Shown one piece after another: positions 9,278 to 22,809 of a stretch of DNA of 22,809 nt (positions within the stretch are counted from its first letter, which is position 1; every line of letters starts with the position of its first letter). The notes under the pieces were generated by a model, which saw nothing but the letters and a program-made list of their open reading frames with translations, did no database searches and had not been told where the DNA came from. The translations under genes were made by a program, and so were the position numbers. Source of the DNA: a virus; the IMG/VR virus record IMGVR_UViG_3300042987_000580, positions 1-22,809 of that record; one strand, written 5' to 3'.

Positions 9278-10143
9278 TACTTGTAAGAGATTTGGGCAGG
9301 TGTAATAATAAATTGGCTTACTAGATGCACATCAGACTTATTGTCCAATATGTGTCTTACCTTCAGATCTTTAGCTCTTAGAGGTTCCTTCTTGAAGGAT
9401 CTCTTACCATAGTCCATATTAGCTTGGTTCACCACCTTATCCAAAGATAGTGATTCACAAGTGGTTAGGAACAGTGGGATGGATTTATTCTTCACCAGTG
9501 ACCAGAAGGTGTTATACTGGTAGAAGTTATCACTCTTAGTAAATGTAATTGTTTTACTCTCAGTGTTGTATATAGGATACTTTAAGTATTCGTTGAGGTT
9601 GTTGATGGGCTTTGGAACCAGTTCAAGCACACCTGTGCTTTGCTGACCGTTGTATAATACAGCTTTGTTAAACCATTCATTGTCAACCTCAATCCTATCG
9701 TTATCATTAAATACACCAGTAGTAGATAAAAAGTACCTATAAGCCTTGGTGTAGTCTTTAACAGATTGAAGAATCTCATCATAATAGGAATAGCTGAACG
9801 GATACTCAATAATATAGGGTTCGATGTTTCCATAAAACTTGTTGTAATTCACCACATCTGTCAAGTGTCTCCATACACAAGAGCTAAGCTTTTGTGTAAA
9901 CGTGAGGGTCACTTGCTCATTAGGTGTCACCTCAGAGATGGGAAAATTGATAGTTTTCTTACAGGTGCCCACCGACTGAATAATAATCACTGTAGCATCA
10001 TCATCTACACTATAGCTCACTCCTTCTATTAGCACACTCTTGGGCACATTTGTAGCTATAACATTTCCAAGGTTGTCAGAAATATTAAAGGGCCCAGATT
10101 TGGGAGAAGCCTTTGTGAGTTTTATGTATACTATTTGTGACAT
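9277..10143 (-). CDS. Virion protein with N-terminal GPFN domain (288 aa)
   Basis: Residues ~4-72 form a beta-rich domain (IVYIKLT ... SGPFNISD ... TCKKTINFPI) that aligns with almost the whole 85 aa protein encoded at 19237-19494. The remaining ~210 residues are a separate part rich in Tyr, Phe and Asn, containing TFWSLVKNKSIPLFLTTCE and, near the end, DYGKRSFKKEPLRAKDLKVR; I recall similar sequence next to the muzzle gene in related phages but cannot name it. There is no poly-Thr tail, signal peptide or membrane segment. The gene starts 12 nt after the muzzle gene and its stop overlaps the start of the cargo gene, so it is expressed with the tail proteins. The likely role is a tail- or muzzle-associated structural protein with the N-terminal domain as a binding module; this is inferred from position. 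Confidence 0.75.
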   Translation of the reverse strand: MSQIVYIKLTKASPKSGPFNISDNLGNVIATNVPKSVLIEGVSYSVDDDATVIIIQSVGTCKKTINFPISEVTPNEQVTLTFTQKLSSCVWRHLTDVVNYNKFYGNIEPYIIEYPFSYSYYDEILQSVKDYTKAYRYFLSTTGVFNDNDRIEVDNEWFNKAVLYNGQQSTGVLELVPKPINNLNEYLKYPIYNTESKTITFTKSDNFYQYNTFWSLVKNKSIPLFLTTCESLSLDKVVNQANMDYGKRSFKKEPLRAKDLKVRHILDNKSDVHLVSQFIITPAQISYK

Positions 10144-10155
10144 CTATTATAAAGT

Positions 10156-13100
10156 TTACAAAGGTGGAAGCGTTGTTGTAGTGGTGGTACCACATGTATT
10201 TCCACAATAAGCACCCTGTGTAGCAGTTCCAAATCCAAATGTAAATGTTACACTACCCTCAACAGCACATAGTATATTATAACTTCCATCAACACCTATG
10301 CTATATGTTTGTGTAAATCCTTGACAATCAATCCATTGGAATGTAGCTCCTAGCTCAGAAGTGACAGTGTATTCATAACAATCATCACAACTAGGAGCTA
10401 ACGTAGTGGTGGTGGTTGTTGTACACTCTTCACAATCTGAATCTTGTGTACAAGGTGTTCCACATAGCGTAATAATCACTCCAGGATCAGAATAAGGAAC
10501 TATCTGTGTGCTAACACATATGTTGATAACTTGTCCTGCTTCTACAGGAGTGTAAGATAGCTGACTAGCACCACACTTGTAAGAAGCTACAAGGTGAGTG
10601 ATTTCATTAGAGTTGTATACAACATAACACTCACAAGGATAGGCAGTTGTTGTTGTTGTGGTTGTGCTGGTGCTAGTGGTGGTGGTTGTGGTTATTTCAC
10701 AAGCCTCACCCTCTAGGTCACAACCAGTGAAAGCTGTTGTGGTGGTAGTTGTAGTGATGCATCCTGAACCAACTAATGTTACATTTAGTCCTTTAGCTGC
10801 AGCATATATCTCATCTCCACATACACAAACTATTTGTGTTTCACCACCTGCAATAGGAGTGCTGTTCTGTGGTTGATTGTTGCAATCTATATAGTCATAG
10901 TAGACTGTCTCAGAAGATTGATTCTCAACAGAATATGTAGTGCACTCACACTCAAATTGTGTTGTTGTAGTGGTGGTTGTATTAGGAACAGGATTACCCA
11001 CCACAGCCTCAAAGTCAGCACAGCAATCATTCACTCCTGAATAGAAGAAGTTGTTCTCAGCTATATAGAAGTTAGGAATGTAGCTATGGAAGCTTATCCA
11101 ACTCTTAGTGTTGAAGTTGAAAGACAGGGTCCAGCTCTTATTACAGAAGTATTCTGAGTCTGTCAGATACACCTGCTTTCTAATAATCTCTGTGCCATCA
11201 CAGCATTCCACCTCTTCTTCTAGATAGAAGTTGAAGTCTGTGTCATCATAAACAATATTATTCAGCTTAGGGATATAGTCAAGCTTGGTAATGATGACAC
11301 GGTCAAACTTGCTATCATACACACCATGGAGTCCTACACCATTGAAATGGTTGTCTACATCCACATTAGGGAAATAACGCAATATTTCAAAAGCTAAATG
11401 GTCTGTAAAGAACCTGTTCATTCCTGATCCAAATGCTGACAAGTCTTGCACCTGATTACCAGCAATTAGGAACACCTGTCCACGCTTAGCATCTATTGTT
11501 ATCTGTCCTTGTGGTATCTTCAGAAGCATCTTGTTTTGAGAGCCCACATATCCTAAATCAGTTTCTGCAAAGTCAATAGGAGGAGCACTTGTAAACAAAG
11601 AAGGATTACCTATATAGGCAGCCTGTGGATTGCTAGTGTTGATAGTGAGAAGCGTGTTGTATAACAAGCTTTTGTTCTCAAAACGAGCTAGAATAGCCTT
11701 GTTCTGTATACCATCTAAGCTCACTAGAGGTCCATAGTTCTGAGGGAAGTCAAAGAAAGAAGAAGCTCTGTAAATCAACCAGTTATTTGCATTTGGTGAT
11801 GTAGTGAGTTCTTGGCTATCAGAGTAGATGGTTCTGAATGGGAAGTTGGTGTAACATACACTCTTCCAATCATAAGGAAGGTGAGTGAATGTATTTTCTC
11901 TGTTTTGCTTAGAAAATGTAGTGTTATAGTAATAGGTGTTATCCTGAGCAATAGACACATAGTCTTCTTGCACCCAATCATCAGGAATACCTGTGCTCAC
12001 ATGAGGCCAGAAGTCACCTTCTCTATTATTAAATGCCTGACGAAGGTCAACGTTGTAAGAGCTCTCACAATAGAAATAGGGGATGCCATACGCAAACAAA
12101 TACATCTTACCATCATAATAAGTTCTACCAGGACTGGTAATAGGAGTTTGACTATTAGGGCAGTCTAGGTTATTAGCCTTAATGGATATGAAGTTTGTAA
12201 GTGTTTGTGGTCCAGCAATTGCTGTTGTAAGAATAGAACGTCCTGAATGCCAGTATACAGGATAGGCTACATTTCCTATTTCATCATAGAATATGTCACT
12301 ATCATCAGGAGCATTCACACGGTTGTCTATAAAGAAAGGTAGTTTGGTCTTAAAGGCAAACTTGCTGATGAATGTATCTCCTCCAAAGAATGTAGCTACA
12401 ACAGGACCTGTAAGAGGAGTGATGTCTCTTTGGAATCCTGTATCCACTGTGTCATAAGAATACATCTGTCCATACTGATTGACAAATATGTTCTTAAGAG
12501 ATCCATAGTAGGAGATAACACTTATATACTGTTCTTGAGCAGGTGTACCACATGTTCCAGACTCACCAAGAGTTGTTCTAGACCTATCATTTACAAGTCC
12601 TGAGATGGTGGGAGTTTGGTTAGGGAAAGGAAGAGCTGGTCTGTTTGACTTAGTCTTTAGGTAAACAGAACTCTCTCTGCTCCAGTTATTTACATTCTTA
12701 TCATCACCCACTCCCTGTACACCAGGAATTAGATATTGTTTTAATTCTAGCTCACGCTGCTTCACTCCTAATCCATTGTTAATCAAGTTACTATAGTCAT
12801 AGCTGGCTATAGAATTGTAGGAATAAGCGTAGTTGCGTCTAGTGATACCATTTATGTAGATGGTAAGATAGGCTTGGTAGGCAGCAAATAATGCTGATGC
12901 ATTATAGTCAATGGTGATGGTTGCTATGTTATTTGCACTATTTAGTGCATCTTGTTGAGCCTCAGAACTTAGCAATCTGTACATAGCGTTTTTATTCACC
13001 TGTACAAAGTGAGCTTTTCCAGCACCATAGATTACATTCTCCAGTTTTAGAACACCTCCTAAGAAAGGTTGACCAAAGGATGTTTCTGGAGAGTTGAATA

Positions 13101-15618
13101 CATGTCTGTATTTAGCTCCATTCTCATCAAATCCTTCTAGGTTATCTGGGTTACAAAGACTAACACCTACAGAGTTTATAAATTCCACTTTGAGTTTAGT
13201 GGCATCATCAACTGTACTATCAGCATATGTAGGTGGTGAAAGTGAAGCAATATCAAAAGTGTAATCACCCACGCCAGAAGGAACTACAAAAGCGTATTGA
13301 TTGTTTATATCAAGAGGCTTATTTAAGAATAAATCACAACATGTAATTGTAGGATTGAGAGCGCAGTATTTAGTCCATCCATCAATATCAGTGGACATAC
13401 CATATCCTGTAGGAGCAGGAAGAACATTTCCTTGATTTAAACCACATCTAGAAATTGGCCAAACTAGTCTAAGTGAAACTGTTTGTGATATGCTGAGTTT
13501 GTTTACCGTAATCTTATATCTGTTATAAGTGTTTGATCCCATCGCTCCTTTAGCACCTCCATTAAACTTTGGTGCAGGATAGTCTAAAGCACAAAGTTTG
13601 ATGATGGTGTTCACCTCTGATGGAAGAATGGTTCTACTAGCTGGTTCTCCTGTGTAGCAATCAATGTAATCGATTGTACCAGGTGCTGTAGGGTAGATGC
13701 TAAAGTTTCTACATATAGATGTATTACTTGTTGCAGCAAGAGGAATGGTGTAAGCATTGCTCTTTTCAAGTAAGAATGGATCTTGTCTTAGGTCATTGTA
13801 AGGATAGTTGGGGAAGTAGTATTCTGTACCCTCTCTATCATACTTACCTACGTTTCTAAGGATACCCTTAGCTACAATAGATTTGTTTGTGCTTCTATCA
13901 CCACGTATAATCTTAAAGCCAGCTATCTCACTTTTTTGTTCAGCAGTGAGATTGGAAGAGTTGATTAGAGATTGTACCTGTTGTACATCTATTCTTACAC
14001 CCAGTGGGAATACAGCATCTTTCTGCATCACCATTGAGTTTTCTCCTGTAAACAGAGCAGACTCAAATATAGGGCTCACCAGTACATCTGGGAACTTGTG
14101 GTGTCTAATCTTCTGACCAGCTAAGTTTCCCCACAATTCTTCATTACAAGGGTATTCTTCTGTAGATTCCCAATAGCTAAACTCACCATTCTGGTAAGGT
14201 CCTTTGTAATCTACAGCAGGAGAATATCCTGGAGAGAATCCTGTAACAGTGGCTGTGTTGTATATCTTCCAATAGGGACTTGTTCCTGCAACAGGATCTT
14301 CAGGATCACCTATGAAGTCATCATTTGTTGTAGGAACAGGGAATAAATCATTAGCATTAGCAAGTCTTCCTGGGATGTGAAATCCATCAGTTTGTTTACC
14401 GTTCTTAAGAAGGAACACTATCTCAAATGCATACACCTCATCTCTTAAATAGCCTCTGAGGTTGGTGGCATTAAACTCATCCGCATAGGTTTCTGTATTA
14501 GGAATCCTATAAGTTTCCCATTGAAGAGTGACACCACTAGCAATTTGCTGGTAGTTGATTCTTTCTATGGAGGTGAGTTGATCCCACACTAATACATCAC
14601 GTACAGCTGTAACATCTTGAGCCACCTCGTAATAAGGAAACTTCTCAAAGATGTCATTCACTGTTAGGCGAATATCAGTTTTGTTTTGACCTGTGTAAGT
14701 GATCACCTGTGTTAGGGTGTCAATGAAGTAGGTGCCTATAAGCTCAACAGAGGTGATACCATTTATGGTTTTAATCACTGCTATGTTGAAATGCTGATAG
14801 AGTCCAGATCCTTCTAAGTTGCTGACAGTGAGTTCAATAGACCTACCTACAGGATAGTTGAAATTGGGAGTGGTAAGACTTGGATCAGCAACAGGAGTGG
14901 GATTGGTCACTGAGTAATAGGACGTAAGAGGATTACCATTAGCATCACAATACTGGATGGCAAATTGGTATGTACCAGCAATAAGCTCACCCCCTGTAGT
15001 GATGTTAGTCACTTCAAGCTGGGGAACCTGGAAGTTAGGTTGTACATTTAATCCGTTACAATCTATTTGGTCACTGTATATAGGGTCACAAGCTGGTGTT
15101 CCTGATATAAGAATATAGGGAAGGTTCTCAGGATTTAGGTCAATATATCTTCTGGGATTGAGACCATCTGTCCAATACACTTCTGTATTACACTCTGTGA
15201 TTCTGTGGACAGCCTTGTGAATAGGATGGTCGATGTTAAAATTGAGACAAGGAGCATTTACATATGTATGATAGATGCAGTCGTTATTATCCATATATCC
15301 AATCTCAGAACCACCTGTGTCAGGATTGGTGATAAAGAATACATGTTTATTTCTTTCTGGAATGAAATGTTCACCAATAAGCACATATCCATCAGGGAAG
15401 CTAAGACAGAACACATTCCCTGGCTCATTCTGATAGTTAACAGAATTTGAGTCAAAGTTCTCAACAGCAGCATTCAATGCATACGTTAGCTGACCTTTGG
15501 GAATCTGCGTAACAGATTGATCCATGTTAAGGCCAACGGTAGCATTGTTAGATTCTTGGACAACATTACTTCTGTTGACACCAAGAATGTTTTTTATTTG
15601 TTCTAATTCATCTGCCAT
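10156..15618 (-). CDS. Tail 'muzzle'/stabilisation protein, P22 gp10-like, with Thr-linked Cys-rich C-terminal repeats (1820 aa)
   Basis: Residues ~15-190 match my memory of the crAss-like stabilisation protein: a GLNMDQSVTQIPKGQLTYAL segment, then LSFPDGYVLIGEHF, then VYWTDGLNPRRYIDL, the last resembling the beta-propeller-like start of P22 gp10 relatives. The middle (~200-1540) is beta-rich, Asn/Tyr/Thr-rich and without membrane segments, as expected for a large tail-tip protein. From ~1547 the protein changes character: five poly-Thr blocks (1547-1553, 1622-1628, 1643-1658, 1733-1739, 1811-1816) separate three Cys-containing domains, and it ends LPPL. In crAss-like phages the muzzle forms the outer end of the short tail; repeats at the C terminus could be exposed or reach the cell surface, which is inference. 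It lies immediately after the gp4-like ring gene, the canonical order. Confidence 0.85.
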   Translation of the reverse strand: MADELEQIKNILGVNRSNVVQESNNATVGLNMDQSVTQIPKGQLTYALNAAVENFDSNSVNYQNEPGNVFCLSFPDGYVLIGEHFIPERNKHVFFITNPDTGGSEIGYMDNNDCIYHTYVNAPCLNFNIDHPIHKAVHRITECNTEVYWTDGLNPRRYIDLNPENLPYILISGTPACDPIYSDQIDCNGLNVQPNFQVPQLEVTNITTGGELIAGTYQFAIQYCDANGNPLTSYYSVTNPTPVADPSLTTPNFNYPVGRSIELTVSNLEGSGLYQHFNIAVIKTINGITSVELIGTYFIDTLTQVITYTGQNKTDIRLTVNDIFEKFPYYEVAQDVTAVRDVLVWDQLTSIERINYQQIASGVTLQWETYRIPNTETYADEFNATNLRGYLRDEVYAFEIVFLLKNGKQTDGFHIPGRLANANDLFPVPTTNDDFIGDPEDPVAGTSPYWKIYNTATVTGFSPGYSPAVDYKGPYQNGEFSYWESTEEYPCNEELWGNLAGQKIRHHKFPDVLVSPIFESALFTGENSMVMQKDAVFPLGVRIDVQQVQSLINSSNLTAEQKSEIAGFKIIRGDRSTNKSIVAKGILRNVGKYDREGTEYYFPNYPYNDLRQDPFLLEKSNAYTIPLAATSNTSICRNFSIYPTAPGTIDYIDCYTGEPASRTILPSEVNTIIKLCALDYPAPKFNGGAKGAMGSNTYNRYKITVNKLSISQTVSLRLVWPISRCGLNQGNVLPAPTGYGMSTDIDGWTKYCALNPTITCCDLFLNKPLDINNQYAFVVPSGVGDYTFDIASLSPPTYADSTVDDATKLKVEFINSVGVSLCNPDNLEGFDENGAKYRHVFNSPETSFGQPFLGGVLKLENVIYGAGKAHFVQVNKNAMYRLLSSEAQQDALNSANNIATITIDYNASALFAAYQAYLTIYINGITRRNYAYSYNSIASYDYSNLINNGLGVKQRELELKQYLIPGVQGVGDDKNVNNWSRESSVYLKTKSNRPALPFPNQTPTISGLVNDRSRTTLGESGTCGTPAQEQYISVISYYGSLKNIFVNQYGQMYSYDTVDTGFQRDITPLTGPVVATFFGGDTFISKFAFKTKLPFFIDNRVNAPDDSDIFYDEIGNVAYPVYWHSGRSILTTAIAGPQTLTNFISIKANNLDCPNSQTPITSPGRTYYDGKMYLFAYGIPYFYCESSYNVDLRQAFNNREGDFWPHVSTGIPDDWVQEDYVSIAQDNTYYYNTTFSKQNRENTFTHLPYDWKSVCYTNFPFRTIYSDSQELTTSPNANNWLIYRASSFFDFPQNYGPLVSLDGIQNKAILARFENKSLLYNTLLTINTSNPQAAYIGNPSLFTSAPPIDFAETDLGYVGSQNKMLLKIPQGQITIDAKRGQVFLIAGNQVQDLSAFGSGMNRFFTDHLAFEILRYFPNVDVDNHFNGVGLHGVYDSKFDRVIITKLDYIPKLNNIVYDDTDFNFYLEEEVECCDGTEIIRKQVYLTDSEYFCNKSWTLSFNFNTKSWISFHSYIPNFYIAENNFFYSGVNDCCADFEAVVGNPVPNTTTTTTTQFECECTTYSVENQSSETVYYDYIDCNNQPQNSTPIAGGETQIVCVCGDEIYAAAKGLNVTLVGSGCITTTTTTTAFTGCDLEGEACEITTTTTTSTSTTTTTTTAYPCECYVVYNSNEITHLVASYKCGASQLSYTPVEAGQVINICVSTQIVPYSDPGVIITLCGTPCTQDSDCEECTTTTTTTLAPSCDDCYEYTVTSELGATFQWIDCQGFTQTYSIGVDGSYNILCAVEGSVTFTFGFGTATQGAYCGNTCGTTTTTTLPPL
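10171..10980 (-). repeat. Three Cys-rich protein repeats joined by poly-Thr linkers (C terminus of the muzzle protein)
   Basis: Poly-Thr blocks lie at 10960-10980, 10735-10755, 10645-10692, 10402-10422 and 10171-10188. Three domains of ~68-74 residues lie between them: residues 1554-1621, 1659-1732 and 1743-1810. Each starts with CxC or CxxC, then Tyr/Val residues, a Y/W-x-D/K-C element, a Gly followed by I/V-x-C, and a C-terminal Gly/Cys element before the next Thr block. A short insert (AFTGCDLEGEACEI) separates two Thr blocks. Thr codons are mixed (ACT, ACC, ACA), so protein-level selection is more likely than recent slippage alone. Confidence 0.75.
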
Positions 15619-15624
15619 TTCCTA

Positions 15625-16599
15625 TTAGTTATTACGTCTCCAACCATATCTATTAGTACGATTGGGGAGTTCATACATATTAAATCTGTTAAGGTCATTC
15701 TTGATTCTACGTTGCTTAGTCCAAGCATCTTGCTTCTTAATCTCAATATCAGCCATGATGAACGCTTCCTCAGCCTGTTGTTTATAGAAACCTAGCTTTG
15801 TCTGAAGCTGGTTGAATGTTTCATCATTAGTCTGGTTGGTGAGGGTTTCAATCACTTTGTATTTGATGAAAGCCTCAATGTATTCTCTAATACGATAGTT
15901 GTCAGGAATGAGCTGATTTCCATTAGGATCATAGTCTGTAGCATAGAACAATAGATGCACAATTCCATTACGGAAGTTGGTAACAAACTTGTTGTCTCTA
16001 ACATCAAAACTATCATATCCAGCAGATCCTGGTGTAAACTCATTAATAGGAGGAGCTTCTTGATAGAACTCCCAGTTGTTAGTATAATCCACTCCACAGT
16101 TATTTCTAGCAGAAATGTTTCCTGGTTTTAACAGGTATTCTCTTCTGTATTGAACAGCAGCAGTGTTGTTAGACTTGTAAACAGCCTGAATAATAGCAGG
16201 CATACAATTCCCATCACACTGTGGATTTTGACATCCAGGGTTGTTACAAGGGGTGCCTCCAATAGTGAGTGGGGAGATTTGAATAGTGGTGTGTGTAGCA
16301 GCTTGAGAATAGAAAGAATTAGCTGACTGATAGGGGTAACCATTCACTGCTGTACACATCCAAGCTTCACGTACAGCAAAGAAGTTATCTGGTAGCCTAG
16401 CTTCATAGTCAGATATGTTAAGAATGTCTTCAGCAATTACATAGGTGGTTCTACCCAGCTTTCTGAGACACTTGTCCAGATAGGTGGGGAACATTAGATC
16501 ATCAACAGCACCAGTGTCAAAATAGCTCTTAAACTCCTCTTTTACAATAGAGTAGATGGGCTCTGGGCTAGTGAAGTTGTATTTATAGTAGTATGACAT
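15625..16599 (-). CDS. P22 gp4-like ring/tail-tubular connector protein (324 aa)
   Basis: The N-terminal half has the pattern expected of gp4-like head-tail adaptors: a helical start (YSIVKEEFKSYF), a PTYLDKCLRKLGR helix, then YEARLPDNFFAVREAWMC leading to a beta region. The C-terminal third is helical and basic (about 240-324). These proteins form a ring under the portal and carry the rest of the tail; the 324 aa length is plausible for the crAss-like version. Synteny is the strongest support: it lies between the IHF-like gene and the muzzle gene. An odd feature is a cysteine cluster at C118, C123, C128 and C132 (CNNPGCQNPQCDGNC), which could bind a metal or form disulphides. The start ATG at 16599 follows the previous stop by 3 nt. 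Confidence 0.72.
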   Translation of the reverse strand: MSYYYKYNFTSPEPIYSIVKEEFKSYFDTGAVDDLMFPTYLDKCLRKLGRTTYVIAEDILNISDYEARLPDNFFAVREAWMCTAVNGYPYQSANSFYSQAATHTTIQISPLTIGGTPCNNPGCQNPQCDGNCMPAIIQAVYKSNNTAAVQYRREYLLKPGNISARNNCGVDYTNNWEFYQEAPPINEFTPGSAGYDSFDVRDNKFVTNFRNGIVHLLFYATDYDPNGNQLIPDNYRIREYIEAFIKYKVIETLTNQTNDETFNQLQTKLGFYKQQAEEAFIMADIEIKKQDAWTKQRRIKNDLNRFNMYELPNRTNRYGWRRNN

Positions 16600-16602
16600 A
16601 GT

Positions 16603-17079
16603 TTATCTTTTCCATTCACGATAGATGTGCTGATACTTGTCATTGGTTTTCAAGTAGTGTGACAAAAGTCTGGAGGTAGTTCTAGAGGGTTTAAAATACC
16701 AAAGCTCACCGTGTTTTAATCTATTAGAGTTTTTAAACCACATCCATCCAAAGAAATATCCTTCTGTATGGAAGTTAAAATTGTAGATGATTTTACCCTT
16801 CTCTCTTGTCTTTTTCCAATCTACAGGAAGGTTGACAAACTCTTTACCATCCACTCCTTTCATCTTTCTACGCTTCTTCTTATTGATGGAGAACTCACCA
16901 AAGCCAAAAGGGAGCTTTGCTTTCTCCCCAGTTTCTAGGATGTATTCCCTAAAAGCGTCTGTAAAAGAATAGATGATGTTTCTCCACTCATCAAATGTAA
17001 GTTTGATGGAGGGATGCTTCTTACAGAAATTGTTGTAGTTTTCTTTGCTTGAACTTCTCCAATCTACCTTTGTTCGCAT
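16603..17079 (-). CDS. IHF/HU-like small basic protein of the crAss-like connector region (158 aa)
   Basis: This is a basic protein. An N-terminal helical part (LTFDEWRNIIYSFTDAFREY) leads to LPFGFGEFSINKKKRR, which resembles the Gly-x-Gly turn and basic beta-arm of HU/IHF proteins. crAss-like genomes carry IHF-like genes immediately before the gp4-like ring gene, and this gene is in that place. In a virion context such proteins have been interpreted as ring or collar components rather than free nucleoid proteins, so it may be structural. It is longer than a typical ~90-100 aa HU/IHF; the C-terminal ~60 residues (YFFGWMWFKNSNRLKHGELW) are aromatic and unlike HU. Its ATG overlaps the upstream stop (TAATG), suggesting coupled translation. 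I am more certain of the family position than of DNA binding. Confidence 0.65.
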   Translation of the reverse strand: MRTKVDWRSSSKENYNNFCKKHPSIKLTFDEWRNIIYSFTDAFREYILETGEKAKLPFGFGEFSINKKKRRKMKGVDGKEFVNLPVDWKKTREKGKIIYNFNFHTEGYFFGWMWFKNSNRLKHGELWYFKPSRTTSRLLSHYLKTNDKYQHIYREWKR

Positions 17080-17807
17080 TAATTGGTTGGTTTAGTATTG
17101 GGGGCCTGACCATCAATACCTTCTGCTGTCATATCTGTCTTGAGTGAGAAATATGTAGCCAGAAGCTTTTGAGAGGTGAGCTCCAATACCTGCTTCTCCA
17201 GATAACCTGGAAGAGCAAACTCCTTGTCTAGTGGATTAACACATAGTTGTTCCACTGTATATTGAGGAGTACCGCAACCACAAGCTGGATAGAGTATTTC
17301 ATTAGGAACATCCTCCTCAAACAGAGCCACTAGTCTGATAGCCTGTAGAAGTGGATTGCTCACATATAGATAGCCATTGCTTATCCAATAATACTCTTCC
17401 TTCTTAATGATGGGAAGTTTTAGAAGATTTATATACCTATTGATGGTTATTTCCTTCAGCTTTTTTCCTTGTCCACTCATTGCATTAATTGAGTAGACAC
17501 CCTGTATTACATATTGGTAATTACCCTCAGAAATACGAGGAAGTTTGTATTTGCTCCTAGCCACTGAGCAAGGGTCAACATATTCACAACATTCGGAAAT
17601 AGGAACTTCTATCATCTCCAGACAAGGAATAGTGGTGAACAGAGTGTCTGTTGCCCACAACTTTCTGAGGTTGGTTTCCCTTTTGAGAAGCAAAAGAGAA
17701 TTGTTCCTAATTTCAGAAGCAATAGCCCTGTCCGTAATCAAGCTATCTGTAGACAGAAGCTTGTGGGCAGAGCGTACATCTGAAACTAATTTCCTTAACG
17801 TGGCCAT
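17079..17807 (-). CDS. Conserved connector-region structural protein (242 aa)
   Basis: I recognise this as a conserved type of protein from the head-tail connector block of crAss-like phages, though no biochemical function is known to me. Recognisable parts are an N-terminal helical region (KLLSTDSLITDRAIASEI), LWATDTLFTTIPCLEMIEVP at 50-69, ECCEYVDPC at 72-80 and a short YWISNGYLYVSNP turn near 140-152. It contains several cysteines, including the ECC...C cluster and CGC at 176-178. No signal peptide or membrane segment is evident. It overlaps both neighbours by one base (TAATG at each end), so translation is probably coupled to the phosphoesterase before it and the IHF-like gene after it. 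A tail or collar ring subunit is the most likely role, by position. Confidence 0.7.
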   Translation of the reverse strand: MATLRKLVSDVRSAHKLLSTDSLITDRAIASEIRNNSLLLLKRETNLRKLWATDTLFTTIPCLEMIEVPISECCEYVDPCSVARSKYKLPRISEGNYQYVIQGVYSINAMSGQGKKLKEITINRYINLLKLPIIKKEEYYWISNGYLYVSNPLLQAIRLVALFEEDVPNEILYPACGCGTPQYTVEQLCVNPLDKEFALPGYLEKQVLELTSQKLLATYFSLKTDMTAEGIDGQAPNTKPTN

Positions 17808-19057
17808 TATATATACTGTTTGAAAATGTTTGTCATTCCATTAATTTGGTCTAGAAGAAACCCAGTCACCTCACCTTTGGAAATCGTGTATCCATTTTTA
17901 TCATCCCAACTACTCTTTGCTGTAGAGAAAGCTGGGAGCTGATAAAACTTGATACCATTGAAATCTAAGCTTAGCTCATGATGTTTGTCTCCTGTGAAGA
18001 TGTAGAAATGATTGTGGTCTGACCAATCACTCTTATATTCCATAGGGAACAAGCTAGCAAGCTTAGCAGGTTTTAGAGCATCTCCGTGGTTGAACATCAT
18101 AGCTGAATGTCCATAACTCACATACTTTCTATATCTAGGAGAGATGTCAAAAACCACACGCTCTTCATGTCTAAAATAAGTTTGTAACCAGCTAGCCAAA
18201 TGCCAGCCTACAAACTCATCATGATTACCAGCTACAAATATCACCTCAACATCTATTCCTTTTTGAAGAAGTAAGTTGATAACACTCACCTCGTGCTCAC
18301 ATATAGCTTGAAAAGCACTGTGATAGGAAAGGATGTTTTGTTGTGGTGTACCTTTTGTAGTTGTGTTGGTGAACTCGCTGTTAAACTCGTCTGACCCAAT
18401 AATGTATTTAATATCTGTTAGATTGTTAGCTAGACAGGCTTGGTTTAGGATGATTTCCACCTTCTGGATGAAGTCACCAAAACGTTCTTCTATACTATTG
18501 TTTCCTTCTATGTCCAGTTTGTTTAGGTGGGAGTCTTGCTTGTTTATGATGAGACAAGCATCTCTTTTACCCAATTCAAATTTAGGAGCTACTATCTCAG
18601 GGGAGCAGGGTTCATAAGTTTCTAGGAAGGCAATAAAGCTATCCTGAAATACCTGCTCATCTTTCTTTTTACCCAACCATGCTTTCACTTGGTAGTGAGG
18701 CTGGTCAGCATTTCCCCAGTAGTTTTGGACGTATTTAGTTATTTCCCACTTGTCCGTATCTATCTTACATTTCTCAATAAGCTCGTCTAAGCTCTTGATT
18801 TCTTCCTTAGAGTTGAACACCACCTCACCAGTTCCCTTTTGTACATCTTCAAAGAACCTTACCACTTGCTCTTCTAGGTCTCCAATGTAGTTACCAACTT
18901 CTGCCTCTTCTTGTGCTATTTGTGAGCCTCGCAGCTCTTTCATCAATTCATCCACCTCATTTTCTGTAATGTTGAGTTTGTCTGCATAGAACTTTTTGCT
19001 CTTCTTCCAGTGGAGCATTTGCTCCAGCTGTTGCAGAAGGGATTGATTTTCAGGCAT
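17807..19057 (-). CDS. Calcineurin-like metallophosphoesterase with N-terminal HTH-like region (416 aa)
   Basis: The metal-binding motifs of the calcineurin-like (Mre11/PP) superfamily appear in order: DSH at 175-177, GSDE around 221-224, GNHDE at 277-281, HGD at 324-326 and GDKHHE at 356-361. These bind a two-metal centre and cleave phosphoester bonds; whether the substrate is DNA, RNA or a small molecule is unknown. Residues ~14-43 (KKFYADKLNITENEVDEL and around) look like a helix-turn-helix, and ~60-130 is a separate domain with TDKWEITKYVQNYWG. The gene opens an operon of connector and tail proteins from its own promoter, so it may act in packaging, DNA-end processing or host DNA degradation. 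The ATG at 19057 follows the promoter by about 29 nt; its stop shares one base with the next start. Motif support for the fold is strong; the role is inference. Confidence 0.85.
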   Translation of the reverse strand: MPENQSLLQQLEQMLHWKKSKKFYADKLNITENEVDELMKELRGSQIAQEEAEVGNYIGDLEEQVVRFFEDVQKGTGEVVFNSKEEIKSLDELIEKCKIDTDKWEITKYVQNYWGNADQPHYQVKAWLGKKKDEQVFQDSFIAFLETYEPCSPEIVAPKFELGKRDACLIINKQDSHLNKLDIEGNNSIEERFGDFIQKVEIILNQACLANNLTDIKYIIGSDEFNSEFTNTTTKGTPQQNILSYHSAFQAICEHEVSVINLLLQKGIDVEVIFVAGNHDEFVGWHLASWLQTYFRHEERVVFDISPRYRKYVSYGHSAMMFNHGDALKPAKLASLFPMEYKSDWSDHNHFYIFTGDKHHELSLDFNGIKFYQLPAFSTAKSSWDDKNGYTISKGEVTGFLLDQINGMTNIFKQYI

Positions 19058-19085
19058 TTACGTTTTGATTTAGTTAAAATTGCAG

Positions 19086-19117
19086 TAAAGGTAGGAAACT
19101 TTTTGATATTTCCCAAA
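19086..19117 (-). promoter_or_regulatory. Bacteroidota-type promoter for the phosphoesterase-to-cargo operon
   Basis: On the minus strand TTTG (19117-19114) is followed after 20 nt by TACCTTTA (19093-19086), one base short of the -7 consensus TAnnTTTG. Transcription would start near 19079, leaving a ~22 nt A/T-rich leader before the ATG at 19057, with no Shine-Dalgarno sequence. It lies directly downstream of a T-tailed hairpin, so terminator plus promoter separate two transcription units. Confidence 0.65.
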
Positions 19118-19171
19118 ATTATCCAAACATTTTTCGTTATCCATGATAACATTTTTGGTTATAAATAAAAA

Positions 19172-19197
19172 CTCCCCAGGGTAGAAACCCCAGGGAG
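19172..19197 (-). terminator. Intrinsic terminator after the small Thr-tail gene cluster
   Basis: The minus-strand RNA can pair CTCCC with GGGAG, then, past a small TG/TG internal loop, GGGT with ACCC around a four-base loop. Immediately downstream on the minus strand is TTTTTATTTAT (ending near 19161). GC-rich stem plus T-run is a standard rho-independent terminator for the cluster ending with the 85 aa gene. Confidence 0.75.
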
Positions 19198-19225
19198 AAG
19201 CCCTGAAAACCAACAAACAGGGCTT
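19198..19225. terminator. Second hairpin, adjacent to the terminator
   Basis: AAGCCCTG (19198-19205) and CAGGGCTT (19218-19225) form a perfect 8 bp stem with a 12-base loop, right after the stop of the 85 aa gene. T-runs follow it only on the plus strand (19224-19228), so by itself it would terminate plus-strand transcription. In the minus-strand transcript it precedes the T-tailed hairpin and may protect the 3' end or block readthrough from either side. Confidence 0.6.
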
Positions 19226-19236
19226 TTTGATAGCTT

Positions 19237-19494
19237 TTATAATATCGTAGTGGTGGTTGTAGTGGTACATTCCACTATGGTGATATCAATATAATTTGTA
19301 CATAAGGGAGGATTGTCAGACATCACCCTAATGATAGTGGTTCCATTTGGAACTAATACACTTGTATACCCAGCTAACAGAGCTGCTTTAGAAACACCTG
19401 TTTCAAAGGCAGATGTATACCCATCAACATCTGAATAGAGATTGAAGGGTCCTGTGTCAGATCCTGCTGTGGTGAGAGTTATTACTACTATCAT
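19237..19494 (-). CDS. Small Thr-tailed protein with GPFN domain (85 aa)
   Basis: Most of the protein is one beta-rich domain (IVVITLTTAG ... TGPFNLYSD ... VSKAALLAGY ... TTIIRV ... CTNYIDITI) that aligns with residues ~4-72 of the 288 aa virion protein. It ends VEC, seven threonines, Ile-Leu, the same tail found on four other proteins in the window. There is no signal peptide or membrane segment. Its ATG overlaps the stop of the 103 aa gene (ATGA), indicating coupled translation, and it is the last gene before the double hairpin. I infer a small virion component, possibly a decoration or tail-tip part; no function is known to me. Confidence 0.75.
   Translation of the reverse strand: MIVVITLTTAGSDTGPFNLYSDVDGYTSAFETGVSKAALLAGYTSVLVPNGTTIIRVMSDNPPLCTNYIDITIVECTTTTTTTIL
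19246..19266 (-). repeat. Poly-Thr tract of the 85 aa protein
   Basis: Seven consecutive Thr codons using ACC, ACT, ACA and ACG, preceded directly by Cys and followed by Ile-Leu-stop. Confidence 0.9.
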
Positions 19495-19802
19495 AACAGA
19501 GTGGTGGTAGTGGTTGTTGTTGGTAGACAGCCATTTACAAGCTCACAGAACTGAACGTGGAATGTGGGATTTACACGAATAAGAATGAGAATAGCGTTCA
19601 GAATGTATTCTGGGCATATCTTAGAATCTATCTTCTCTAGAGCAATATCAAGGGAATCTCCTGTATTTACACCAGAGCATGGAAGGTTGTTTCCGTTGTA
19701 TACAATTTGACTAGCATCTAGACACACTGGAGGACAAGGACCCATTCCTTCTGGGTATACAGGCCCTGTCTGATAACAGGGCATTCCTGGTAAACAAGCC
19801 AT
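19491..19802 (-). CDS. Small Thr-tailed protein with TGDSL module (103 aa)
   Basis: The N-terminal ~27 residues are Cys/Pro-rich (CLPGMPC, then GPCPPVC). Residues ~31-52 (SQIVYNGNNLPCSGVNTGDS plus Leu) align with residues ~19-40 of the 381 aa collar protein (sharing Q, V, Y, G, N, P, G and TGDSL). A short hydrophobic helical stretch follows (EYILNAILILIRV, about 65-77). The protein ends GCLP, seven threonines, Leu-Leu. The TGDSL-type segment is common near the bases of phage fibre proteins, so this may be an anchoring module without its fibre. It lies between the collar gene (11 nt gap) and the 85 aa gene (ATGA overlap). Function unknown; a virion surface protein is inferred. Confidence 0.72.
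   Translation of the reverse strand: MACLPGMPCYQTGPVYPEGMGPCPPVCLDASQIVYNGNNLPCSGVNTGDSLDIALEKIDSKICPEYILNAILILIRVNPTFHVQFCELVNGCLPTTTTTTTLL
19500..19520 (-). repeat. Poly-Thr tract of the 103 aa protein
   Basis: Seven consecutive Thr codons, preceded by Cys-Leu-Pro and followed by Leu-Leu-stop. Confidence 0.9.
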
Positions 19803-19813
19803 TTATAATTAGT

Positions 19814-20959
19814 TTATGGGATGTACATAATATAGTAGCAAGCAAGAACAGGTGGGATGTTACCATGAGACTGGCCACCTCCTGTAGAATCATTATTCAC
19901 ACCTACAAATATTCCTGTTGTTTTTGTTTCACTTAATCCAAGAGTGGGTGCATTGTTGCTACCTGTCATTCTGTAAGAAAGTCCATCATCTAAATCATGT
20001 CTGAAATCAATGAACGTGGAAGCTGTTACATCAGGAGCAGATGAGCCACTAGCAATAGCACCAACAAGTAGGTGGTTGTGTCCAGGATCTACAAGAGTGG
20101 TGTTAGCAACGTGTGTGTGAGCAGGAATCTGTGCAGATGTAAGTGTAATAGTGTTAGCACCTGTTGTAGTGTTGAGAGCATAGTTGGGGTTACCAGCTAT
20201 ACTAGGATCAACAGCAGGATTGAGAGCTCCACCACCTGGAACAGCTTGAATAGCCCCTACAGGAATTCTTCCACGCTTATCAGGAGTGCCATTTGCACCA
20301 TTACATAAATAGATGTCTTCAAATCCATTAGCAGGAATGCCTATACCAGCACCATCAAAGTTGCTGAGAGATCCATAGTATTCCACCACTGTATAAGGAA
20401 CCATTCTGTCCTTGTATTGTACAACACCAGGAGCTGGTGTACAAGCTGCTACAAGAGCACAGAGTTCTGATTTCTTTACATAGTTGGTTTCAACATCCAC
20501 TACAAAAGCATCAAAATCAGCTTCTAGTAAGCAGAGCTTTGTAATAACAGCCTGGAGAATAGCATGTGTTCCAGAGTTAGCATTTACACCTGAAAGACAA
20601 TCTACATCATAAGGTCCTTCTAAAGCTGCTAAATCTGCTACAATAGCATCCACTTGCTCCTGTAAATCACAGGCAGCTTTAATAAGAGCTATGAACAGAT
20701 CAAGAGCTGTGAGGTCTTGACAGTCAGGTAGATACTGTTGAACAAGTTCACATATAATATCAGGATCAATAACTGGTTTGATTCCTGTAGCATCTAATGT
20801 AGAAGTGAGAAATCCAATAAGAGTTTGTTCTACATAAGAAAGGGAATCTCCAGTTTGGATTCCTAAGAGTGGAACATTCACTCCTGTATATTTGACGCAC
20901 TGATCTGATACTATCTCAGCGCAACCATTAAAGCAATTTGAACAGTTTGAGGAGGACAT
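19814..20959 (-). CDS. Fibre protein with tail-collar (microcystin-dependent-type) domain (381 aa)
   Basis: Three parts are visible. Residues 1-50 are Cys-rich with a VKYTGVNVPLLGIQTGDSL anchoring-type module shared with the 103 aa protein. Residues ~55-165 look largely helical, perhaps a trimeric stalk. Residues ~185-381 match the phage tail-collar family: YLCNGANGTPDKRGRIPVG (218-236), SAQIPAHTH (275-283) with the histidine pair, PGHNH (292-296), and the closing GGGQSHGNIPPVLACYYIMY (360-379), the classic C-terminal signature. In T4 gp12 the corresponding histidines bind a metal inside the trimer; that is family knowledge. The likely role is a host-binding fibre, either on the tail or as a head fibre, since crAss-like phages carry head fibres near the capsid genes. 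The family is clear, the location on the virion is not. Confidence 0.82.
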   Translation of the reverse strand: MSSSNCSNCFNGCAEIVSDQCVKYTGVNVPLLGIQTGDSLSYVEQTLIGFLTSTLDATGIKPVIDPDIICELVQQYLPDCQDLTALDLFIALIKAACDLQEQVDAIVADLAALEGPYDVDCLSGVNANSGTHAILQAVITKLCLLEADFDAFVVDVETNYVKKSELCALVAACTPAPGVVQYKDRMVPYTVVEYYGSLSNFDGAGIGIPANGFEDIYLCNGANGTPDKRGRIPVGAIQAVPGGGALNPAVDPSIAGNPNYALNTTTGANTITLTSAQIPAHTHVANTTLVDPGHNHLLVGAIASGSSAPDVTASTFIDFRHDLDDGLSYRMTGSNNAPTLGLSETKTTGIFVGVNNDSTGGGQSHGNIPPVLACYYIMYIP

Positions 20960-20969
20960 TTATTTAGGT

Positions 20970-21098
20970 TTATGTGTGAGGAAAAAGAAGAGTGGTTGTG
21001 GTGGTAGTGGTTGATAGACAATCTGTTGGTATGCAGTTGTTTGGATAGTAAACTGTCACTATCACAGGGTCTCCACAAGGATCGTAATAGCAGTTCAT
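20970..21098 (-). CDS. Tiny Thr-tailed protein (42 aa)
   Basis: A small reading frame starts with an ATG overlapping the preceding stop (ATGA at 21098-21095) and ends at TAA 20972-20970, 10 nt before the collar gene. It encodes MNCYYDPCGDPVIVTVYYP, NNCIPTDCLS, seven threonines, then LLFPHT. With four cysteines and a Cys-Leu-Ser-Thr7-Leu-Leu tail it carries the same C-terminal signature as the other tagged proteins, which, with the tight overlap, is the reason to believe it despite its size. The body before the tail is only ~29 residues. Function unknown. Confidence 0.68.
   Translation of the reverse strand: MNCYYDPCGDPVIVTVYYPNNCIPTDCLSTTTTTTTLLFPHT
20991..21011 (-). repeat. Poly-Thr tract of the 42 aa protein
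   Basis: Seven consecutive Thr codons, preceded by Cys-Leu-Ser and followed by LLFPHT and stop. Confidence 0.85.
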
Positions 21099-21361
21099 TT
21101 GCTTATCAACAGTTTAACCCTACTAGCAATCATCTCCACAGTATACATCTTTGCATAATTTGGATTGCAAAACTTATACGTGAGGATTCTTTTGTAATTC
21201 AGCAGGTCTAATATAGCTCCTGCTGGAACAGGTTGATTTAAAATAAATACAACGTTATTGTACAGATTTCCAGCTAGTTGCTTAAGCTTGCAATCAATGT
21301 CATTAAGCAACGCGGGAATTGTGGAACATTCTGGATAGTTGATTAATCTGGGAGTTAACAT
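21095..21361 (-). CDS. Small helical protein of the capsid-proximal cluster (~88 aa)
   Basis: From the ATG at 21361 this encodes MLTPRLINYPECSTIPALLN, then DIDCKLKQLAGNLYNNVVF and a helical region ending in MIASRVKLLISK. The DIDCKLxxLAxxLYNN pattern looks familiar from small proteins near capsid genes of Bacteroidota phages, but I cannot assign a role. The frame stays open up to an ATG at 21421, which would overlap the zinc-ribbon gene by 119 nt. The start chosen overlaps it by 59 nt, and a TTG next to the zinc-ribbon stop is a third option; the true start is uncertain. Its stop overlaps the ATG of the 42 aa gene. No membrane segment or signal peptide is seen. Confidence 0.6.
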   Translation of the reverse strand: MLTPRLINYPECSTIPALLNDIDCKLKQLAGNLYNNVVFILNQPVPAGAILDLLNYKRILTYKFCNPNYAKMYTVEMIASRVKLLISK

Positions 21362-21476
21362 ATCGTTTAAAGTTTTGTACGCCTTTGCTTGCAGCTGCAT
21401 TACATGCTGCACAAAGACCATTAATCAATTGACAACCACATCCAACATTTGTGCCACAGTTTCTACATTTAGCCAT
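21303..21476 (-). CDS. Small zinc-ribbon-like protein (57 aa)
   Basis: The start ATG follows the stop of the 188 aa gene by one base (TAACATG). The first 24 residues contain six cysteines in pairs: C4-x2-C7, C12-x-C14 and C21-x2-C24 (AKCRNCG, GCGCQ, LCAACN), a pattern that can hold a zinc ion. The remaining ~33 residues are polar and probably helical (GVQNFKRYVNSQINQLSRMF). I recall similar CxxC...CGC...CxxC mini-proteins from Bacteroidota phages but know no function; a structural stabiliser or small regulator are both possible. It overlaps the next gene in another frame, and the ordered cysteines argue that this frame is the real one at its 5' end. Confidence 0.7.
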   Translation of the reverse strand: MAKCRNCGTNVGCGCQLINGLCAACNAAASKGVQNFKRYVNSQINQLSRMFHNSRVA

Positions 21477-21477
21477 G

Positions 21478-22044
21478 TTATTGGAAGTTTAATACGTAGT
21501 TATTTCCACCGCATCCACAATTGTTCTTGATGAAATTATTCAACATCATGTTTGCTTGGTTATAAAGTTTGTTAGCTTCATCAATAGCGCAGTTGTTAGC
21601 TGCAGCAATAGATCCCTGTATAAAGAAGTAGATGGTGTTTAAATTCACCTTCTGCTGTGTTTTAATAGCTCTATCACACTCCATCATATCAAGCTTCATA
21701 AAGGCCTCATCAAACTTTTCTTGTATGAGGTCTGTACGCATGATAGCTTTTTCTACGAAGTTTAGATAGGCAGGAGCAACAGTGTATTTAAACTTATACA
21801 CTCCATCTGGGAGAGGCAATAGGGAATCCCCTAATGATGTAATTCCCAAACTTGTGGAGTTATAAATGTTAAAATCATTAACGTTAAAGGGAATGCTAAC
21901 TGACCCAAAACCAGGAACAGTGATGTCAATTGTGGGGGAAGAAACAACAGGGGGATTGGTCGGATAGGTAGATGCATCAGCAACACCAAGTGTGTACGAG
22001 TTGTACGTAGGTATCACTAATATATCAAGTTTCAAATCTGGCAT
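21478..22044 (-). CDS. Conserved protein downstream of the capsid gene (188 aa)
   Basis: The N-terminal half is beta-rich (LKLDILVIPTYNSYTLGVAD, then ITVPGFGSVSIPF) and leads to LPDGVYKFKYTVAP near residue 78-91. The C-terminal half is helical (EKAIMRTDLIQEKFDEAFMK, then LDMMECDRAIKTQQKVNLNT), followed by an Ala/Asn-rich helix and CGCGGNNY near the end. I recall this layout as widespread among Bacteroidota phages beside virion genes, without a known function. It is the first gene after the terminator hairpin that follows the capsid-like gene; no promoter is obvious in the 87 nt gap, so it probably depends on readthrough. An auxiliary capsid or head-fibre accessory role is plausible but inferred. 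Confidence 0.75.
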   Translation of the reverse strand: MPDLKLDILVIPTYNSYTLGVADASTYPTNPPVVSSPTIDITVPGFGSVSIPFNVNDFNIYNSTSLGITSLGDSLLPLPDGVYKFKYTVAPAYLNFVEKAIMRTDLIQEKFDEAFMKLDMMECDRAIKTQQKVNLNTIYFFIQGSIAAANNCAIDEANKLYNQANMMLNNFIKNNCGCGGNNYVLNFQ

Positions 22045-22060
22045 CTTATTCTAAATAAAT

Positions 22061-22101
22061 AAGCCAGAGGATCTGAGTTTGTATCCTCTCACCTCTGGCT
22101 T
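22061..22101 (-). terminator. Hairpin after the capsid-like gene (terminator or attenuator)
   Basis: AAGCCAGAGG (22061-22070 on the plus strand) and CCTCTGGCTT (22092-22101) form a perfect 10 bp stem with a ~21-base loop that can itself pair TGAG with CTCA. On the minus strand it is followed by ATTTATTT, a weak T-rich tail. Placed 30 nt after the capsid-like stop codon, it likely stops part of the transcription, giving more capsid mRNA than downstream mRNA. Confidence 0.7.
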
Positions 22102-22131
22102 AGGTTATATGATGTTGTTTCTTAGCTACTA

Positions 22132-22809
22132 TTACGGAATCAAGGTAGATGTAGTAGTAGTAGTTGGCCACACAGTGGTAGTAGTAGATGTAGTAGTAAC
22201 ACAATCATTATCAGCCACTACAGTTCCTAATGCAGCCTCAAGGATGGCTTGAAGAGCAGTTTCTTCACCAGATCCTTTTTCAACAGCAATGATCACTCTG
22301 CTATCCTCCATGATGTAGTCACCCCATTGGTAAACAGTTTTGTCATACTCGTTGAAACGGATGTTGAAGGTGTTGTAAGTTGTACCATCACTCACCCAGC
22401 TTTCAAAGTTCTCATTGTAGCCATTCATTCTGTACAAATGCTTCAAGTAACCTGCTTGATAGCTGTAGAAGTTCTTCTCCAATTGTGCAATCTCTGCAGA
22501 TGTACCGCTTGGATAAGAAGCACGCTGAATAACAGTGGCATCAGCTACAATGTTACAAGCATCAGCAACGATGAAGTCAGCTGTAGTTGCAGGACCATTG
22601 TACACGAATGTACGGAACCACATACGGTCATACTCCCAAGGGAATGCTGCAACATCACAAGGCTGTCCGTACTTAGTAAGAGGCTTACCAGTGATACGTA
22701 AGATAGCGTTCTGATCATTTCCAATACGTTGGAACTGATAGAATGTGTTGAAAGAGATGTTGTCAGGGTTGTTTCCAGGAGCTTGTAATTCTAATTGATA
22801 GATGAACTG
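22132..22809 (-). CDS. Probable major capsid protein, C-terminal 225 residues, with Thr-rich tail; gene continues off the right edge
   Basis: The frame is open to the right edge, so the gene starts outside the window; an internal ATG at 22623 is not the true start. Visible sequence includes FYQFQRIGNDQNAILRITGK, a GQPCDVAAFPWEYDRMWFRT segment and YQWGDYIMEDSRVIIAVEKG. I associate these with the crAss-like major capsid protein, but no HK97 signature can be proven from this fragment. Support also comes from position (before the connector genes), the following attenuator, and codon use: arginine is mostly CGT (6 of 8 counted), unlike neighbouring genes where AGA looks more common, as expected for a highly expressed protein. 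The oddity is the C terminus: DCV, TTTSTTTT, VWP, TTTTTST, LIP. An abundant head-decoration protein is the main alternative. Confidence 0.6.
   Translation of the reverse strand, partial: QFIYQLELQAPGNNPDNISFNTFYQFQRIGNDQNAILRITGKPLTKYGQPCDVAAFPWEYDRMWFRTFVYNGPATTADFIVADACNIVADATVIQRASYPSGTSAEIAQLEKNFYSYQAGYLKHLYRMNGYNENFESWVSDGTTYNTFNIRFNEYDKTVYQWGDYIMEDSRVIIAVEKGSGEETALQAILEAALGTVVADNDCVTTTSTTTTVWPTTTTTSTLIP
22144..22197 (-). repeat. Thr-rich tail of the capsid-like protein
   Basis: Two Thr/Ser runs (TTTSTTTT and TTTTTST) separated by Val-Trp-Pro, preceded by Cys-Val and followed by Leu-Ile-Pro-stop. Codons are mainly ACT with some ACA and ACC. Confidence 0.88.

Follow-up and report, generated by a model that had tools for sequence, protein, structure and literature searches.

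Poly-threonine tails on virion proteins of an aquatic crAss-like phage, together with similar linkers within its muzzle protein, are probably acceptors of O-linked glycosylation by a phage-encoded, cytoplasmic transferase of the PHROG 4417 family. Glycosylation is favoured among the possible roles because this family, with a predicted GT-A fold, adjoins and co-occurs with Thr-tailed genes in unrelated phage lineages. It is also the most economical reading, because it covers the interchange of Thr and Ser in the tracts, their exposure both at chain ends and in linkers, their spread over unrelated proteins, and the pairing of tails with the transferase gene.

Threonine tracts in the window and their carriers

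The window, i.e. the whole stretch of DNA that was analysed, is 22,809 bases long and represents part of the genome of an uncultivated IMG/VR virus. It encodes the Crassvirales hallmark proteins muzzle, ring proteins 1 and 2, and auxiliary capsid protein (matches to crAss_MUZ, CrAss_Ring_1, CrAss_Ring_2, and 7qof_a), and, outside the window, the related contig G005 encodes crass-type major capsid, portal, and terminase proteins (phrog_11589, phrog_6547, and phrog_6681, respectively). The window genes lie on the minus strand, and the relevant features are as follows:

22132–22809, minus strand: auxiliary capsid protein, C-terminal 225 aa (gene truncated at its 5′ end by the contig boundary); 22135–22203 encodes the tail CVTTTSTTTTVWPTTTTTSTLIP, C-terminus reading ...NDCV-TTTSTTTTVWPTTTTTST-LIP-stop
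20970–21098, minus strand: 42 aa Cys-rich protein; tract 20991–21014, C-terminus DCL-ST7-LLFPHT-stop
19814–20959, minus strand: 381 aa tail-fibre/collar protein without Thr tail (phrog_8469 tail fiber protein, E 1.4e-17)
19491–19802, minus strand: 103 aa protein with Thr tail, ...NGCLP-T7-LL-stop; tract 19500–19520
19237–19494, minus strand: 85 aa protein with Thr tail, ...IVEC-T7-IL-stop; tract 19246–19266
17079–17807, minus strand: ring protein 2, without Thr tail (CrAss_Ring_2, E 3e-18)
16603–17079, minus strand: DNA-binding-like 158 aa protein, without Thr tail
15625–16599, minus strand: ring protein 1, without Thr tail (CrAss_Ring_1, E 3.1e-10)
10156–15618, minus strand: 1820 aa muzzle protein (crAss_MUZ, E 2.5e-35); C-terminus ...NTCG-T6-LPPL-stop, tract 10171–10188
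10960–10980, minus strand: internal muzzle tract T7 (VPN-T7), without nearby Cys
10735–10755, minus strand: internal muzzle tract T7 after GCI
10645–10692, minus strand: internal muzzle tract T6-STS-T7 after ACEI
10402–10422, minus strand: internal muzzle tract T7 after EEC

The original prediction of a tag common to five proteins of different families was borne out by the sequences of all five C-termini. The ends that it had quoted were correct for the 85 aa, 103 aa, 1820 aa, and auxiliary proteins, whereas the 42 aa protein ends in T7-LLFPHT and not in T7-LL. Shuffling the 16 window proteins with their composition preserved gave an expectation of 0.0055 runs of six or more Thr residues vs nine observed, and of 0.004 proteins ending in five or more Thr residues vs five observed, values so far above the expectation from Thr content that the tails are more than coincidence. 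Counterparts of the 103 aa protein at the same syntenic position in relatives are usually Thr-tailed as well, and Thr-tailed families other than the auxiliary protein vary between genomes.

Thr tracts of the muzzle were found only in its C-terminal 275 residues and at the C-terminus itself (residues 1547, 1622, 1643, 1733, and 1811), the internal ones being located between Cys-rich segments of ca. 75 aa. These internal tracts had been described as closely following a cysteine, which holds for GCI-T7, ACEI-T6STST7, and EEC-T7 but not for VPN-T7. As separate observations in this region, the domain of the 85 aa protein recurs at the N-terminus of a 288 aa protein encoded at 9277–10143 (BLASTP, 36% identity over 58 aa), which also matches the C-terminal end of the muzzle-type profile phrog_15100. 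Among INPHARED phages, the most similar muzzle, with 36% identity, is encoded by Leptolyngbya phage Lbo-JY46 (PP438436.1), reported from a cyanobacterium; a crAss-like phage on such a host would be unusual, so caution is due with this host assignment.

The tailed protein originally termed capsid-like is, according to structural modelling, a homologue of the auxiliary protein exposed on the outer surface of the phicrAss001 capsid. The AlphaFold model of a full-length tailed homologue (L019, 387 aa; moderate confidence, pLDDT 71) matched the 333-residue phicrAss001 capsid chain 7qof_a (Foldseek E 5.8e-9). Residues 1–333 of the phicrAss001 auxiliary protein gp36 correspond to its two domains, and gp36 forms the outer capsid layer with nine copies per asymmetric unit (PMC10172136). 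Identification of the tailed 387 aa protein as the major capsid protein was ruled out, since the latter is the product of a separate, upstream 517 aa gene in G005 (phrog_11589, E 1.3e-32) and the predicted fold is that of the auxiliary protein. Scanning for homologues of the auxiliary protein yielded 80 loci. The T/S-rich tail was present on 50 of 50 non-redundant full-length auxiliary proteins, a figure that is not fully unbiased because part of these sequences came from a scan for the tail pattern, and 44 of the 50 ended in LIP; in the homology-fetched set alone, which is a mixed set, the tail was missing from one listed family member in 74.

PHROG 4417 and its pairing with Thr-tailed genes

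In many genomes with tailed proteins, a gene of ca. 312–349 aa belonging to the unannotated family PHROG 4417 was found near small Thr-tailed genes. The AlphaFold model of its product is confident (pLDDT 93) and matched GT-A enzymes (UGGT, glycogenin, and alpha-1,3-galactosyltransferase) with a Foldseek E value of 4e-7 and a probability of 1.00. In addition, a DxD motif (D109-x-D111 and D93-x-D95) occurs without variation in both the crAss-like and the Gram-positive members, and comparison with Pfam and NCBIfam gave no match. These data make PHROG 4417 a good candidate for a GT-A glycosyltransferase, with both activity and acceptor predicted from model and gene context. Glycosylation had been said to need a cytoplasmic enzyme, and this phage-encoded family, which adjoins and co-occurs with Thr-tailed genes in several unrelated lineages, is a good candidate for it.

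Within the crAss-like lineage, every one of the 16 large related contigs with a tailed auxiliary protein in the set tested contained the PHROG 4417 gene, as did all 16 contigs that carry its usual neighbour, a 135 aa gene; PHROG 4417 was often flanked by Thr-tailed genes. Given these two results, its absence from shorter contigs is best explained by contig ends. The gene is absent from the window fragment and from its closest relative (71 kb), which also lacks the 135 aa neighbour gene, and we infer that the phage from which the window derives carries it outside this fragment. No Thr tracts of the (ACN) type were found in three crAss-like phages devoid of the transferase gene, Lbo-JY46, phi17:2, and csAssE-Sib. 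The absence of the gene from the window and its 71 kb relative counts against glycosylation, as does the 120 kb contig G029, which encodes a poly-Thr protein and lacks PHROG 4417.

Two gene arrangements in relatives are worth recording on their own. A recurrent island (L112:14326-16571, L214-L229) consists of a gene for a 44–50 aa 'QIGWSQESNLLW..ISKQLE' protein with a Thr tail, followed by the PHROG 4417 gene and by one or two genes for 58–99 aa 'RFDGSGRIVPGSLIL..AYECCNP' proteins, often Thr-tailed. A cluster at L112:1362-10041 (G005:58362-67041) encodes a GT1, an FkbM methyltransferase, a sulfotransferase, an APS kinase, a cytidylyltransferase-like protein, a DUF2061 protein, and a 1139 aa methyltransferase-GT1-GT9 protein, and may serve to make, elaborate or sulfate a glycan. 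GT2, GT1, and sulfotransferase families were rejected as a general partner of the tails, since they occur only in some contigs; a sulfotransferase above the cut-off was found in 6 of 38 records. For a suspected likeness of the Y-x-x-W-Q motif to plant peptidyl glycosyltransferases, sequence searches of Pfam and PDB had no match, and the idea was dropped.

Distant PHROG 4417 homologues were found in 74 phage records, chiefly from unrelated phages of the Gram-positive hosts Lactobacillus, Enterococcus, Staphylococcus, and Lactococcus, with ca. 26–37% identity among the matches listed. The gene lies directly 3′ of the major tail gene in phiFL1A, 1706, and LpeD, directly 3′ of the major capsid gene in 4995_1, directly after the major capsid or tail-tube gene in R3.3, and near one of these in vipetofem. 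One or both of the major capsid and tail-tube products beside the transferase are poly-Thr-tailed in each phage, as exemplified by TTTTTTKPTTTTTTTQA; both are tailed in phiFL1A, and in vipetofem the tail tube is tailed and the major capsid protein is not. In MA9V-3, which infects Chryseobacterium, the Thr tracts are internal to genes neighbouring the transferase. A profile scan for the transferase yielded 80 loci, grouped into 29 clusters at 80% identity. A Thr-tailed gene was located within 4.5 kb in 26 of the 29 clusters vs none of 258 control genes, and 24 of 58 immediate neighbours of the transferase were Thr-tailed vs 0/258 in the control (permutation p 5e-5). The three clusters without a Thr-tailed neighbour count against glycosylation.

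Tail and transferase were associated in at least three gene families. Homologues of the 4995_1-type major capsid protein comprised 56 cases with both, 13 with neither, two with a tail and no transferase, and none with a transferase and no tail; for phiFL1A-type tail-tube homologues the corresponding values were 3, 11, 0, and 0, and all these raw counts greatly overstate the number of independent events, since many loci and contigs are near-identical prophages or close relatives. At least one of the two exceptions (L274) corresponds to a contig that ends at the major capsid gene, leaving no room for the transferase. The tail-tube genes of L311 and L312 are 86% identical and differ jointly in the tail and the adjacent transferase gene, with matching genes at both flanks. 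The same coupling was observed for the R3.3-type major capsid protein, except in L440. In this locus, the major capsid, tail, and transferase genes all look frameshifted and the tail seems to be missing, and it was treated as a sequence or assembly error or a decayed prophage copy.

In the proposed mechanism, the predicted GT-A enzyme, with its DxD motif and presumably a nucleotide-sugar donor, would modify Thr/Ser residues before or during virion assembly. Acceptors would be unstructured, surface-exposed tails of virion proteins, with Thr as the putative acceptor residue. The main carrier in the crAss-like lineage would be the auxiliary protein of the outer capsid layer, with several short proteins and the C-terminal region of the muzzle as further carriers, and the resulting virion would be coated with short sugars.

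Tract form and alternative explanations

The length of Ser-free tracts in the crAss-like group is narrow, with seven (n = 52) or eight (n = 29) residues in 81 of 87, and their usual form is T7/8-[VIAL]-[AP]-P. Besides, the auxiliary tail, mostly 21–23 residues long, is 86% identical on average (T and S counted as equal) vs 49% for the adjacent upstream linker, a constraint that speaks for glycosylation. The sharp T7/T8 length and the near-fixed LIP end are stricter than plain carriage of sugar would need and count against glycosylation; the narrow length may be due to the way in which the acceptor is recognised or to a further role in structure. The same traits, together with the usual 21–23 residues of the auxiliary tail, fit a peptide docking element, i.e. 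a sugar-free short β-strand or extended peptide with a common binding partner on the virion, as do the two strands that AlphaFold draws in the auxiliary tail, modelled at pLDDT below 50. We consider this explanation unlikely, since it does not account for the joint gain and loss of tails and the adjacent predicted transferase in unrelated phages, nor for the use of the same tract as a linker within the muzzle. Of the roles originally proposed, glycosylation is the one favoured by the pairing with the transferase, the disulphide tip is weakened by the frequent lack of the cysteine where the Thr run is kept, and the docking strand keeps a small probability for the well conserved auxiliary tail.

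Flexible linkers of low complexity, or seams of domain shuffling whose terminal copies have lost a downstream domain, are an improbable explanation of the tracts. This explanation agrees with the division of Cys-rich segments by the internal muzzle tracts, with the T7-phi-x-P form common to internal and terminal tracts, and with the recurrence of small domains across genes. However, codons are mixed (ACA/ACC/ACT), the 65 T7 contexts being encoded by 60 different DNA sequences and sharing no DNA repeat, indicating that the tracts are kept at the protein level; their length and T/S identity are maintained while the adjacent linker drifts, the tailed genes mostly encode short complete proteins rather than truncated multidomain ones, and the link to the transferase is left unexplained. 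Microsatellite slippage was ruled out by the mixed codons and by the confinement of (ACN)7 tracts to one strand in each of 20 related contigs. When 2.9 million viral contigs were scanned for T7-phi-x-P followed by a stop codon, 78 stretches emerged, mostly from this lineage, and six matches to the same pattern were obtained in 257 Gb of genome sequence from bacteria and archaea. Separately, long T/S tracts of small tailed proteins (L207, L214, L223) often finish in T7/T8 followed by a few hydrophobic/Pro residues, suggestive of a fixed length for the last run.

Glycosyltransferases of phages often modify DNA or the host envelope. PHROG 4417 might likewise act on something other than the tails, such as DNA or the host surface, its closeness to Thr-tailed genes being incidental, and the presence of further glycosyltransferases, a sulfotransferase, and an APS kinase in some related genomes is compatible with such a target. 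This is very unlikely, since the virion gene directly adjoining the transferase is typically Thr-tailed, whereas its close homologues without a transferase are untailed.

The upstream cysteine had been regarded as a fixed part of the tag. It is enriched, being present in 47 of 50 auxiliary proteins of relatives and within four residues upstream of 22 of 39 other terminal tracts (8.2 expected) and 82 of 150 internal tracts (25.8 expected), but it is often missing: auxiliary proteins L413, L414, L416, and L418 keep the tail and lack the Cys, and none of the 49 Thr-tailed genes of the Gram-positive set has it, which rules it out as a component of the tag. As judged from these sequences, the cysteine is part of the preceding domain, and in the muzzle it seems to be the residue that closes a Cys-rich segment. 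A disulphide-locked trimerisation tip formed by the Cys and the Thr run, as initially proposed, is therefore extremely unlikely, even with the enrichment and with the disulphides that stabilise the phicrAss001 tail (PMC10172136).

Relation to known systems and implications

Virion glycosylation by phage-encoded glycosyltransferases has been described for mycobacteriophages Che8, Corndog, and Myrna by Freeman et al. (2023; cited in PMC12363180 and PMC12619734), with glycans reported at the C-terminal ends of capsid and tail-tube subunits. The phages analysed here likewise encode a transferase (predicted GT-A with DxD, found in relatives and not in the window fragment). Their candidate acceptor tails are located at the C-termini of capsid and tail-tube proteins. 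On the contrary, the major capsid protein and the tail protein of Che8 lack poly-Thr tails, comparison of its gp109 and gp110 with the PHROG 4417 profile revealed no similarity (hhalign E 0.28 and 0.98, respectively), and the acceptor here appears to be a plain run of Thr borne by many proteins that are unrelated to each other. Virion glycosylation is thus already known from mycobacteriophages, and the present case would differ in its enzyme family and in having a simple acceptor sequence that recurs. PhicrAss001 has the same families of muzzle, ring proteins 1 and 2, major capsid, and auxiliary capsid proteins, and the main text of the paper describing it mentions neither threonine nor glycosylation (PMC10172136). 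With GT-A enzymes of the GT8/GT24 type (glycogenin, UGGT), PHROG 4417 shares the predicted fold, the DxD motif, and ca. 10% of the residues in the structural alignment. The tails resemble mucin-like or PT-box Thr/Pro-rich segments in having Thr runs broken by Pro and x-x-P after the run. Unlike them, the tails here are narrow in run length and occur in a phage virion context, and the resemblance is not a claim of homology. A literature search of incomplete coverage found no described function for poly-Thr tails in phages.

It is fairly likely that these tails represent a portable glycosylation tag, in which one GT-A family recognises a short Thr run that several unrelated lineages have added to those virion proteins that happen to be exposed (capsid, tail tube, auxiliary capsid, muzzle, and short fibres). 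If so, sequence alone would show which virion proteins carry sugar. Virion glycosylation would then extend, with a signature readable from sequence, to aquatic crAss-like phages and to many phages of Enterococcus, Lactobacillus, Lactococcus, and Staphylococcus, and the unannotated PHROG 4417 family would gain a function. Cultured phages such as phiFL1A and 1706 make the question of glycosylation directly testable, and the answer bears on the recognition of phages by their hosts and by immune systems.
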